Made by a program: the position numbers and the translations under genes
Shown: in pieces, positions 38,107 through 43,651 of the stretch
Layout of the letters: every line of letters starts with the position of its first letter
Position numbering within the stretch: position 1 is the stretch's first letter
Source of the DNA: Prasinococcaceae sp. CCMP 1430
Taxonomy: Eukaryota > Prasinodermophyta > Palmophyllophyceae > Prasinococcales > Prasinococcaceae
Direction: 5' to 3'
Length of the DNA stretch: 64,000 bases
Assembly: GCA_013416795.1 (NCBI GenBank)
Contig: RQSC01000002.1
Location: 66,942 to 130,941 of the forward strand
The notes under the pieces: model-generated
Database searches by the model: none
What the model was told of the DNA's origin: nothing
What the model saw: the letters and a program-made list of their open reading frames with translations, nothing else

Positions 38107-39401
38107 CTGTGTACACGTGCGGATGCATTTGGGTGGGCGGGTGGACGCAGGCGTGGGTGTCAGGTGCCGGGGGGCGGAGAGGGGGGGGGGGGGCAGAATG
38201 TCGATGGCGGCGGGATGGGGCGCGCGATCGGCGGGCGGGCGCACGTGAGGGTGCGCAGCGCGCGTGGCAGCGGTGCCGAGGCGCAACAGCGACAGCGCAG
38301 GCGCAAGCGGCACGCGACGAGCTGGCTGTCGGCGCGGCAAAGCCGTGCACAGATCGCGCGGGCGCGCCCGCGCCCGCGCGATCCGAACTCGTCTCTCGCA
38401 GATCGCATCGTCACTCGCGCCCGCGCGCGCGCCCGCGCCCCCCCGCCCTTCTCGGCCAGAGACGAAGGGTCGTCGTACCACCACTGCGTCACCGTCGGAG
38501 CGCCGGGCGCGACCCCCCCCATCACAACGCATGCGTCGCGCGCCGCGCGGCCCCGCGCGCGCTCGGGGAACTCTCGCCAACTTGAAATTCGCAATTTGAG
38601 TTAACCCTACATCCTCACAACCTTTATTCCGACTTTTTTGGTTTGGGTTCTGGCTTCGGCCGAATTCCTTCAAACACTAACCCACGGGAAAGTCTATCAT
38701 ACGTCAAGTTAAATTTAGCCCGGCGGGAGCGGGAGCGGGAGCGGCGCGCGTTCGCTTTCGCGCGAAAAATTCGAAAGTCGCGGCGGCGGCGGGGCCGGCG
38801 AGAGGTCAAAACGCACGCGATCCGCGCGGCGGGCGCGCGCGTTCGTCGGAGACGAAGCGCTCCCGCGGCGGCGGCGCGGGAGAGAAAAAAAAACAAATTT
38901 TCGGTTCGAACGCGGGGCTCGGCGCGCGCGCGCGAAGACGCCCCAACAGCCACCCCGCCGCGCGCGAGGGTTGAGGTTTGACCATCCAATCTGCCACGAA
39001 AACGCACGCCAACCTCCAAAAACGCTCGCGTCACATCACACCAAAGGCGGGCTTTGAGGGTCGAACCGTCCACGTAGGGTCTGCGTCCGCCCGCTTTCCC
39101 ACTCCTTTTGCCCTTGGCACCACAAAAAAAAAAAAAAAAAAAAAAACGCGGAAGGGGGAATTTGGCGCGGCGGCCGCCGCGCGGGAGATCGGCGGCCGCC
39201 GGGCGCCGGGGGTGGGCGGGGTGGCGGGTGCAGGGGCGCCGTCGGGACGTGGGAGGAGGAAGGGGACGCACAAAGGGGGCGGGGGAGGGGGGGAGGGGCG
39301 CCAGAGAGCGTGCGCTGCGAGCGCCTCTCCGAACCGCGGCCCTCCTTTCCGCCTTCCCCCGGACGCGCACGCGGCGTGCGCGCGCGCCCCGCCCGGCCGC
39401 G
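38107..39401. other. Divergent intergenic region between Sec61 alpha and SerRS
   Basis: It should hold the short first exon of Sec61 alpha (minus strand), which I could not identify. It contains a G11 tract (about 38180-38190), an AT-rich island with AACCCTA at 38603-38609 and runs of T (38598-38700), an A9 tract (38885), and an A24-length tract near 39123-39146. Confidence 0.5.
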
Positions 39402-41552
39402 ATGCTCGACATCAACCTGTTCCGCGAGGACCGCGGCGGCAACCCCGACCTCGTGCGCGAGTCGCAGCTGCGGCGGTACGCCGACGCGGGGCTCGTCGAC
39501 CGCGTGTGCGAGGCGGACGCCGCGTGGCGCGAGGCGCGACATGCCCTCGACATGCTGAACGGCGACTTCAACGCCGCCAACAAGCGCGTCGCCGCCAAGA
39601 AGAAGGCCAAGGAGAACGCCGACGAGGAGATCACCGCCGTCAAAGCCATCGCCGCCAAGATCGCCGCGGCCAAGGCCGCGGAGGCCGAGGCTGCCGAGGC
39701 CGCGCAGAAGAGCGTGGCGCCCATTGGCAACCTGGTTCACCACAGCGTGCCCGTGCACGATGACGAGGACAACAACGTCGTCGAGCGCACGTGGGGCGTG
39801 GCGAGCAGCGAGGGCAAGCCGCACAACCACGTCGACCTCATGTACATGGCGGGCCTCACGGACCTGGAGAAGGGCCAGCAGGTTGCGGGCAACCGCGGGT
39901 ACTTCCTCAAGGGCTGCGGCGTGCTGCTCAACCAGGCGCTGATCAACTACGCCACGGGCTTCCTCGCGCGCCGCCAGTACACCCCGCTGCAGACGCCCTT
40001 CTTCATGAAGAAGGACATGATGGCCAAGTGCGCGCAGCTGAGCGAGTTCGACGAGGCTCTCTACCACTGCACCGGCGACGGCGACGAGAAGTACATGATC
40101 GCCACGTCGGAGCAGCCGATCTGCTGCATGCACGCTGGCGACTGGATTGACCCCAAGTCGCTGCCGATCCGCTACGCGGGCCTCTCGACGTGCTTCCGCA
40201 AGGAGGCCGGCTCCCATGGCCGCGACACGGCGGGCATCTTCCGCGTGCACCAGTTCGAGAAGGTGGAGCAGTTCGTCATCACCTCCCCCGACGGCGACGA
40301 CTCGTGGCGCGCGCACGAGGAGATGATCGGCATCTCGGAGGAGTTCTACCAGTCGCTGGGCCTGCCCTACCAGGTGATCAACATTGTGTCGGGCGCCCTC
40401 AACGATGCCGCCGCCAAGAAGTACGACCTCGAGGCGTGGTTCCCTGCGTCCAAGACCTTCCGCGAGCTCGTGTCGGCGTCGAACTGCACCGACTACCAGA
40501 GCCGGCGCCTCGAGGTGCGTTACGGCTTCAAGAAGGCCGGTGAGACCAAGAAGCAGTACGTACACATGCTCAACTCGACGCTTACTGCGACCGAGCGCAC
40601 GCTGTGCTGCATCGTCGAGAATTATCAGACGGACAAGGGCATCGTCGTGCCCGAGGTGCTGCGCCCGTTCATGATGGGCGTTGAGTTCATCCCCTTCGTG
40701 CGCGACGCACCCGAGCAGCCGGCCCCCAAGAAGTCTAAGGGCGGCGGCGGCAAGGGCGGCAAGGGCGGCGACGGCGGCGCCAAGAAGGGTGGCGACGGCG
40801 GCGCCAAGAAGGGTGGCGACTCGAAGACCGGTGAGAAGGGCGCGAGCGGCGGCGCCGCCGGGGGCAAAGGCAAGGGCAAGGGCGGGGATGCGCAGCCCAA
40901 GGGTGGCAAGGGTAGCGATGCGGGCAAGGGCAAGCAGCAGCAGGCCGCCGGTGGCGGCAAGAAGGACAAGAAAAAGGCGGCGCCGCAGGAGCCTCCGGTG
41001 GAGCTCGTGGTGCCGTCCAAGAGCGGTGCGACCGCCCCCTTCTCGAAGTCTGACGCGCGCGCCCTTCGCATGTTCTGCACGGAGGCGCAGGTCAACCATA
41101 ACGTTGTCGAGGCCGACAGCGCAGCTGGGGCCGCCGCCGGTGTGGGCGCTGCCGCGGTGCCGCTGCTGGTGGACCTCGACGGCACTCTGATCACGCAGCC
41201 CGTCAGCATCATGCGCCACCTGGCCGCCAAGAAGGGCAACCCCATGTTCCCAAATGGCGCTGATGCCGCTGCTATCCGCGTGGAGCAGCTGCTGGAGTGG
41301 CAGGCGACCACGCTGCGGCCGTCGCTGACTGGCGCGGCCGGTTCGGGCGCTGCTCCTGGCTGCCTCGCGTCCCTGGAGGGCTGGCTGAAGGAGAGCGCGG
41401 GCAAGTACATCACGGGGAAGGGCTTCACCGCGGCTGACATCGCCATTGCGATGGACCTCGCAGATGCCAGCGTGGAGGGCTATGCGAAGGTCGGCAGCTG
41501 GCTGGAGACCATGCGCGCGCGCCCCAGCTACGCTGTGGCCGTCGAGGCCTGA
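39402..41552 (+). CDS. Seryl-tRNA synthetase fused to a C-terminal GST-like domain
   Basis: A single exon gives 716 aa; a usual cytosolic SerRS is about 450-510. Residues 1-120 form the tRNA-binding coiled-coil arm (MLDINLFREDRGGNPDLVRE). The class II catalytic domain follows (about 130-440): LTDLEKGQQVAGNRGYFLKG, TPFFMKKDMM, TSEQPICCMHAGDWI, motif 2 FRKEAGSHGRDTAGIFRVHQ, and motif 3 region NYQTDKGIVVPEVLRPFM. Residues about 443-528 are a Gly/Lys-rich linker. Residues about 531-716 resemble a GST fold of the tRNA-synthetase type (EF1-gamma/AIMP-like): PFSKSDARALRMFC, VPLLVDLDGTLITQPVSIMR and FTAADIAIAMDLADASVEGY. Such domains usually mediate multi-synthetase assembly. The ATG at 39402 matches the conserved start. 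Confidence 0.93.
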   Translation: MLDINLFREDRGGNPDLVRESQLRRYADAGLVDRVCEADAAWREARHALDMLNGDFNAANKRVAAKKKAKENADEEITAVKAIAAKIAAAKAAEAEAAEAAQKSVAPIGNLVHHSVPVHDDEDNNVVERTWGVASSEGKPHNHVDLMYMAGLTDLEKGQQVAGNRGYFLKGCGVLLNQALINYATGFLARRQYTPLQTPFFMKKDMMAKCAQLSEFDEALYHCTGDGDEKYMIATSEQPICCMHAGDWIDPKSLPIRYAGLSTCFRKEAGSHGRDTAGIFRVHQFEKVEQFVITSPDGDDSWRAHEEMIGISEEFYQSLGLPYQVINIVSGALNDAAAKKYDLEAWFPASKTFRELVSASNCTDYQSRRLEVRYGFKKAGETKKQYVHMLNSTLTATERTLCCIVENYQTDKGIVVPEVLRPFMMGVEFIPFVRDAPEQPAPKKSKGGGGKGGKGGDGGAKKGGDGGAKKGGDSKTGEKGASGGAAGGKGKGKGGDAQPKGGKGSDAGKGKQQQAAGGGKKDKKKAAPQEPPVELVVPSKSGATAPFSKSDARALRMFCTEAQVNHNVVEADSAAGAAAGVGAAAVPLLVDLDGTLITQPVSIMRHLAAKKGNPMFPNGADAAAIRVEQLLEWQATTLRPSLTGAAGSGAAPGCLASLEGWLKESAGKYITGKGFTAADIAIAMDLADASVEGYAKVGSWLETMRARPSYAVAVEA

Positions 41553-41665: not shown

Positions 41666-42925
41666 TCATGCGGAAGGGCGCCTGGAGCGCGCACTGACTT
41701 CGGCAGCGCGCACCGAGCCCTCCTGAGCGTAGATTGCTAGGCTAGCGAGCGATGTAGCGGTCATGCCGTAGCCCAGCGCGTCCACGGCGAACGCAGGCGG
41801 GAAGTCCAATGCCTTTTCCGTCATTGCCGCGAGCACGAGCGCCAGCTGTAGCACCGTGTTCACCTTGGACACGAAGTGCGGCTCCAGCGGCTTGGCGGCG
41901 GTGCCATCGCTGGTGTCAACGTTGAAAAAGTGCGAGACGGAGCGCACCGCGCGCACGCCGCCGAGTTCGTGTGCGCGCAGCGCAAATGCGCCGCCGAGAA
42001 GCGCAGCATCGCGCCCCATCGACACAGCCACCAGCCACGCCGGGAGGTAGCCTGCGTACCCCATCGCGCCCACCGCGCACAACAGGAAAACTTTGTCTGC
42101 GAGCGGGTCGAGATAGGTGCCGAGCACCGACTGCTGGTTGTACTTCTTCGCGTAGTAGCCGTCAGCCCAGTCGCTCCAGCCTGCAGCAATCAGGAGGGCG
42201 AGTGCGGTGCTGTCATGGCCAGCGAGAAGCAAAGACACGAAGGCAGGCCCGCCTAGCAGCCTCGCGAAGCTCAACGCGTTTGACACAGTCAGAGGATTCG
42301 ACGTCGCCCACCAATGCGCCACATCATATGTCACGTCATGGCGCCCCCTCGGCCCGTGCGCGTGCTGCTGCTGCTGCCCTTGCTGTTGCTGCCGCGGTGG
42401 TGGCGGCGGCAGGGGCGGTCGAGGCCGCTGGTCCCGGCGCGGCTGCTGCGTCCTGGCTCCTGCGCTTGCGCCATGCCGGGCGTGCTGCTGTGCATAGCCT
42501 CGATCGCACCAATGCTGCTGCTGGTAGTGCGGTGGCCGTGATGCAGACGCCGGGCTCATAGAGCCGCGCGCGAGCGCGTTGCTACAGGCAGACGTGGCCG
42601 CTGCCGCGAATCCTCGCAGGGTGCTCGCGCGCCAGCGCCCTGGGATGCCATCCCACGATGCGACGCCCAGTGGAAGCCATGCTGCAGGCGCGGACGGTTG
42701 TGACCGCGTACTCGCGCTGCGCGAGCACGCTCGCAGCGCTCCAGCGCACTGATCCCATCGCCGCGCCCGTCCAGCGCTGCCGTTGTACTGAGCCGCTGCA
42801 TTCGTCCCCATGCCACCACTGCCACCAACGCACGCCACCGCCTCAGCAACTGCCGCAGCAACACGCACTTGGCGTCCGTCCGCGCGCCGGCGTGCGAGCA
42901 GGAGCGGCGATGCCGCAGGCGTCAT
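41666..42925 (-). CDS. Cardiolipin synthase, CDP-alcohol phosphatidyltransferase type
   Basis: About 419 aa from the ATG at 42925. The C-terminal about 220 residues carry NPLTVSNALSFARLLGGPAF and the catalytic motif SDWADGYYAKKYNQQSVLG followed by TYLDPLADK. This is the D-x2-DG-x2-A-x8-G-x3-D-x3-D signature, with Lys where Arg is usual after the Ala. Four to five membrane helices follow. The enzyme condenses phosphatidylglycerol with CDP-diacylglycerol in the mitochondrial inner membrane. The N-terminal about 200 residues are Arg/Ala-rich (possible mitochondrial presequence MTPAASPLLLARRR) and then Gln/Pro-rich low complexity. It is tail to tail with SerRS (113 bp) and diverges from CNOT3. 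Confidence 0.9.
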   Translation of the reverse strand: MTPAASPLLLARRRADGRQVRVAAAVAEAVACVGGSGGMGTNAAAQYNGSAGRARRWDQCAGALRACSRSASTRSQPSAPAAWLPLGVASWDGIPGRWRASTLRGFAAAATSACSNALARGSMSPASASRPPHYQQQHWCDRGYAQQHARHGASAGARTQQPRRDQRPRPPLPPPPPRQQQQGQQQQHAHGPRGRHDVTYDVAHWWATSNPLTVSNALSFARLLGGPAFVSLLLAGHDSTALALLIAAGWSDWADGYYAKKYNQQSVLGTYLDPLADKVFLLCAVGAMGYAGYLPAWLVAVSMGRDAALLGGAFALRAHELGGVRAVRSVSHFFNVDTSDGTAAKPLEPHFVSKVNTVLQLALVLAAMTEKALDFPPAFAVDALGYGMTATSLASLAIYAQEGSVRAAEVSARSRRPSA

Positions 42926-43651
42926 CGCCGCGTGGGGGACGGTGGTCGGAGCGCCCCTAGCGCGCCGCAGCGGCCACTCTCCCACCTTTCCCCCACTCTG
43001 TACGCCCTACTCCCGCGAGGCGCGCCCCCGCGCCCCAGCGGCGGACACCGCGGGGGCGCTCAGAGCTGCGCGCGGCACACTGCGCGCCGCACTCTGACTT
43101 GAGGTTGCGGCGGCGCTGGCTGCAGAAGGAGCTGTAGCCGAGGCGGTGGTGTCCGTGCGCGATACGCGCGTGCCTGCGTGCCTCGTGCCTGCGCCCCAGC
43201 GCGCCTGCGTGCGGTGTGACACGTGTGCATGTGTCGGTAGCCCCCGCGCTGCGCACCCGGTGGGGCAACTGCGACCGCGCACTTTTTCGCCGGCGCAAGC
43301 AGTGCCCCAAAGCGCGCGTGCGGCGCGGCGCCACACCGTGCGCGCGGCGGAAAACGCACACGGGACACGCTGCGGGCTGTCGGGGAGGAAGATCGGCGTG
43401 GGGGCAGGCGAGGAGGAGCAGGTCTCTTTCGCACGTGGGTGGGTGGGGAGGGGAGGGGGGGGGGAGCTGCGCGCTTGTCGGCCCCCGCGGGGCTGTTTGG
43501 CCATTTGGCGTGCAGCCCTTTTTTTGGCTCGCGGTTGCATCACCGACTCACCAGCAACAGTCGCGACTGCCGTACAGCACGTGGCCGTCCAGCTGCTACT
43601 GCGTGCAAGAGCGTGTCACACGACTGGACCGCGGCGCAGGGCTCGTACGCG
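42926..43651. other. Divergent intergenic region between cardiolipin synthase and CNOT3
   Basis: 726 bp. Frames on both strands are low-complexity only. A G-rich tract (about 43439-43466) and a T7 tract (43519-43525) are present. Presumed promoters of both genes. Confidence 0.45.

Follow-up and report, generated by a model that had tools for sequence, protein, structure and literature searches.

GST-like domains are the fasteners of eukaryotic multi-synthetase complexes, and seryl-tRNA synthetase (SerRS) is a homodimer. In the AARS Online catalogue of 2024, GST domains are recorded for CysRS, GluRS, MetRS, and ValRS only (PMC11580382), the same four enzymes that an earlier note on the DNA described here, made from the sequence alone, had named as their carriers. 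A survey of Arabidopsis lists a GST domain on GluRS only (PMC7564348). The 2024 review of SerRS describes basic extensions and UNE-S as the only extensions of the eukaryotic enzyme and mentions no GST domain (PMC10817482). The earlier statement that no standard SerRS was known to carry such a domain is in line with both the review and the catalogue (PMC10817482, PMC11580382); in the open-access literature, no description of a GST domain on SerRS or on AlaRS was found.

In the complexes of yeast, human, and apicomplexans, GST-like domains are joined either through interface 1, which is the classical GST-dimer face, or through interface 2 (PMC10813123, PMC6760448). Interface 2 requires an arginine residue in helix α7, which is present in ERS, the AIMPs, and the EF1 subunits and absent from MRS and QRS (PMC10813123, PMC6760448), so that its lack is normal for the latter two enzymes (PMC10813123). 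In the QRS-ERS-p43-MRS complex of Toxoplasma, two interface-2 domains are central and synthetases are joined by interface 1 (PMC10813123). The GST domain of deuterostome ValRS docks on the EF1B elongation-factor complex (PMC4394549).

The SerRS core and its C-terminal fusion

The window, i.e., the whole stretch of 64,000 nucleotides of Prasinococcaceae sp. CCMP 1430 that was analysed, contains on its forward strand one open frame of 716 amino acids (39402-41552), starting with an ATG at 39402 and ending with a stop codon at 41550-41552. It is free of introns and corresponds to the single uninterrupted exon that had been described for this locus. The core of the encoded protein, residues 1-443 (39402-40730), comprises the N-terminal tRNA-binding arm and the class II catalytic domain, both of which exceed the Pfam cut-off (PF02403, 82 bits; PF00587, 144 bits). 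The NCBIfam model serS (TIGR00414), whose cut-off is 302 bits, covers residues 1-424 with a score of 452 bits. Among solved chains, the closest is Arabidopsis cytosolic SerRS (6gir), which aligns over residues 1-446 without large gaps (587 bits, E 4.6e-175), compared with 496 bits for human SerRS. This alignment takes in the start MxDINLFRE and the terminal KKSK, and the residues C210 and C241 align with the cysteines of MAKCAQL and EQPLC, a pair that is conserved in green plants and implicated in redox resistance (PMC10817482). Judged by these matches, residues 1-446 make up a complete cytosolic SerRS of the plant type, in agreement with the complete class II enzyme that had been claimed. The likeness to the Arabidopsis enzyme embraces the whole core, the start, the lysine-rich end, and the cysteine pair, but that enzyme stops where the algal linker begins and is devoid of a GST domain. 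The second SerRS of the same genome, which is taken as organellar, is likewise without a GST-like domain.

The lysine-rich C-terminus of plant SerRS is prolonged in the alga by a linker rich in Gly, Lys, Asp, and Gln (residues about 444-530; 40731-40991), which is delimited by the sequence itself, its in-frame GC3, and the collinearity with 6gir up to KKSK. At 87 residues, it is close to the 85-residue Gly/Lys linker estimated before. The remaining 186 amino acids, residues 531-716 (40992-41549), constitute the GST-fold domain, with a thioredoxin-like half followed by a helical half. GC content at codon position 3 amounts to 0.95 in the core, 0.87 in the linker, and 0.85 in the domain and is at background level outside the ORF; all three portions therefore look coding.

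The fusion of SerRS and GST-fold domain is genuine at the DNA level. Between residues 425 and 557 no in-frame Met codon is found, and Met557 lies inside the predicted first helix of the domain, which for this reason cannot be a separate standard gene; an independent downstream gene, having no start Met of its own, was rejected. A convergent gene for a CDP-alcohol phosphatidyltransferase (41666-42985, opposite strand) is located 113 bp past the SerRS stop. An artefact would consist either of two genes joined in the assembly or gene model or of an undetected intron whose splicing takes the domain out of the transcript. Given the continuous frame, the strong third-position periodicity through the linker, the missing start codon for a domain gene, and the close convergent neighbour, such an artefact is hardly conceivable.

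A run of about 23 A residues is found at 39125-39147, roughly 255 bp before the start codon of SerRS, and the second SerRS gene is also closely preceded by a long poly-T run (reverse complement, locus L002). The low GC content at 12-14 kb of the window merely reflects a run of N.

The GST fold and its missing residues

When the domain alone was scanned against Pfam, it matched GST families only, the N-terminal type before the C-terminal type, all of them below their gathering scores (GST_C_3 as the best with E 0.0032, GST_C_2, GST_C, and GST_N_2). In a phmmer search of the PDB, GSTs lead (4iel, 2.3e-4; 3lsz, 4.4e-4), and human AIMP3/EEF1E1 is the nearest translation-linked solved chain (E 0.005). 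Against a profile built from 18 bacterial relatives of 4iel, hhalign returned a probability of 97.3% and a score of 73.6 over 128 columns. Among the controls, none of 200 shuffled versions of the domain exceeded 21.3, none of the 203 other ORFs in the six frames of the window exceeded 20.5, and the SerRS core scored 14. Chance similarity to GSTs was rejected on the strength of the shuffles and the other ORFs (at most 21.3 versus 73.6). The domain is 24-28% identical to 31 bacterial 4iel homologues.

Structure prediction from the single sequence gave a pLDDT of 37 and is not counted as evidence. With the 31 bacterial GSTs as alignment, AlphaFold produced a model with a pLDDT of 72.6, a pTM of 0.70, and its elements in GST order, although this model is biased by the alignment supplied and one of five models exceeded pLDDT 60. 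Compared with GST structures, the alignment-guided model yields Z values of 17-19 over about 173 residues and a Foldseek probability of 1.0. Both the thioredoxin-like half and the all-helical half are recognized, as read from the alignment-guided model and the sub-threshold Pfam matches. The sequence and profile evidence is independent of the AF2 model. The predicted GST fold of residues 531-716 is confirmed by these comparisons: the domain of about 185 residues postulated in the earlier note gave a GST-fold match when submitted to the profile search and the structure prediction proposed there, the good AF2 model being the alignment-guided one.

Before helix 3, where active GSTs have the Glu/Asp-Ser pair that binds glutathione, the alignment places Gln599-Pro600 (41196-41201). 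The cis-Pro (P57 in domain numbering) is retained, as are the N-cap box and core positions. Of the 64 columns that are near-invariant in the bacterial set, only 17 are kept. The N-capping box φ-S/T-x-x-D-φ of the core helix in the GST helical subdomain (described in PMC10813123) was detected by motif scan as FTAADI (residues 675-680; 41424-41441); it is common to GSTs generally. Because Glu-Ser is replaced by Gln-Pro, glutathione binding has presumably been lost, and the domain is likely no working transferase. In helix α7, Ser699-Trp700 (41496-41501) stands where GluRS- and AIMP-type domains have the interface-2 arginine ("RW"), as placed by motif and model rather than by direct alignment to EPRS, and the arginine is hence absent.

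The best sequence and profile matches are Nu-like and theta-like GSTs (4iel, 4kdu, and 2c3n), from which the SerRS domain differs by the lack of the Glu-Ser pair and by its fusion to a synthetase. With the domains of MetRS, GluRS/EPRS, ValRS, and CysRS (PMC11580382) it shares a GST fold without glutathione site and the attachment through a linker; unlike these, it is located C-terminally on a class II SerRS, an enzyme for which the catalogue records no GST domain. AIMP3/EEF1E1 (p18) and the N-domains of Arc1p/p43 have a GST-like fold as well, and AIMP3 matches the SerRS domain at the E value given above, but they are free-standing or EMAPII-linked adaptors, and the AIMPs possess the interface-2 Arg where SerRS has Ser.

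Other GST-like domains in the same genome

Comparisons within the genome refer to a 24.5 Mb assembly of 145 contigs, whose LHC proteins belong to the chlorophyll a/b type, as in a green alga. AlaRS (contig C84, about 147830-151156) carries an N-terminal extension, in frame with the catalytic domain, in which GST_C (PF00043) scores above the Pfam cut-off; like SerRS, it falls outside the AARS Online catalogue with such a domain (PMC11580382). The N-terminal domain of GluRS matches EPRS at 7e-12, and a GST domain on this enzyme is what would be expected in plants. In MetRS (contig C77), the C-terminal half of a GST-like domain is found upstream of the catalytic core (GST_C, sub-threshold at 20 bits), and the enzyme also has a Gly/Lys/Ala linker and, at the C-terminus, an EMAPII-type tRNA-binding domain; Arabidopsis MetRS has the EMAPII-type tail only, to which the algal enzyme adds the weak N-terminal match. 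The linkers of SerRS, GluRS, and MetRS are alike, with a GKGGKGG-like composition. No GST-like domain was seen in the frame read for GlnRS, and the CysRS matches are split over exons. The EF1B-gamma subunit of the alga (contig C89) carries a GST domain.

The α7 motifs of GluRS (ARWA) and AlaRS (ARWL) contain the arginine; those of SerRS (GSWL) and MetRS (AKWA) do not. The arginine rule is merely a guide, since algal EF1B-gamma has a Lys (TKYF) at the expected interface-2 position.

A separate GST-bearing AIMP or Arc1p was not found in the genome, PF21972 being matched at GluRS only, and the EMAPII-type protein on contig C15, when read through, has no GST upstream. Contig C45 ends within the coding region of either an EMAPII-type tRNA-binding protein or a MetRS-like C-terminus, and the N-terminal part, possibly an adaptor domain, would lie beyond this end. 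Contigs C69 and C108 have one and the same ORF with a weak match to GST_C_3, perhaps a case of a duplicated or haplotype contig, and several large ORFs (507-567 aa; L010, L026, and L033) combine GST_N and GST_C matches with a long extension.

With respect to descent, the SerRS domain scores above the GluRS, AlaRS, and MetRS domains on the bacterial GST profile, and for this reason it may derive from an ordinary GST and not from the docking family of the synthetases. AIMP3 is among its matches, but bacterial GSTs score higher. A paralogue search of the own genome with the domain returned one free GST only, theta-like by eye (43% over 47 residues, E 0.02), and no relatives of either the domain or the full-length protein were found when the IMG/VR contigs were searched.

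A putative docking module for tRNA-charging complexes

The GST-like domain, fused to the C-terminus of this cytosolic SerRS through a flexible basic linker, would most likely be a non-catalytic docking module by which the enzyme is tethered to a multi-synthetase complex assembled via such domains; a probability of about 0.7 is assigned to this reading. Docking onto another GST-like factor, as suggested in the earlier note, is made more plausible by the GST-like domains on AlaRS, GluRS, and, weakly, MetRS of the same genome and by the loss of the glutathione-binding pair.

Other roles have to be weighed against it. Docking of SerRS onto the EF1B complex instead of other synthetases, with channelling of Ser-tRNA to EF1A, would have its precedent in ValRS (PMC4394549) and a possible partner in the GST domain of the algal EF1B-gamma; three further synthetases with GST-like domains in the genome favour a complex among synthetases, and the EF1B route is considered unlikely. 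Still lower stands the idea that the domain, jointly with the basic linker, merely strengthens the dimer, stabilizes the enzyme, or adds to nonspecific tRNA binding. The homodimeric nature of SerRS, the use of interface 1 as a dimerization face, and the Lys-rich linker would fit such a role, but SerRS dimers elsewhere need no such aid, and in other synthetases of this genome comparable domains are attached to the opposite terminus. Least probable of the three functional alternatives, if by little, is that SerRS has been fused to a functional glutathione-dependent enzyme or to a redox sensor. It could draw on canonical bacterial GSTs being the best profile match and on the cysteine pair of plant redox resistance kept at 210 and 241 (PMC10817482); the Gln-Pro in place of Glu-Ser and the retention of just 17 of 64 near-invariant bacterial columns speak against it.

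For the docking module within a multi-synthetase complex, the absence of the α7 arginine needed for interface 2 suggests that the SerRS domain would pair through interface 1, the mode used by MetRS and GlnRS in other complexes. The central interface-2 pair could be formed by GluRS and AlaRS, both with the "RW" motif. As the arginine is present in these two and absent from SerRS and MetRS, the simplest hypothetical wiring would place the latter on the outer interface-1 faces of the GluRS-AlaRS pair, the AlaRS and MetRS domains being weakly scored. Being homodimeric, SerRS would bring two docking domains per dimer and could in this way link one complex to another. The arrangement would differ from the Toxoplasma complex in that SerRS would sit outside and AlaRS could replace an AIMP. 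That the complex indeed dispenses with a separate GST-bearing AIMP scaffold, AlaRS taking the adaptor's place beside GluRS and SerRS and MetRS joining via interface 1, is put forward as a tentative and rather doubtful proposal. If it were true, two class II enzymes, for Ser and Ala, would be joined by their own GST domains, a situation absent from the reviews consulted.

In published lists, GST domains reside on four synthetases; in this alga they are also found on SerRS and AlaRS, so the fastener has moved beyond that set. The fusion offers a concrete, testable case for a synthetase complex held together by GST domains in the green lineage, none being described in the reviews consulted, and it suggests that tRNA-charging complexes in algae may be differently composed.
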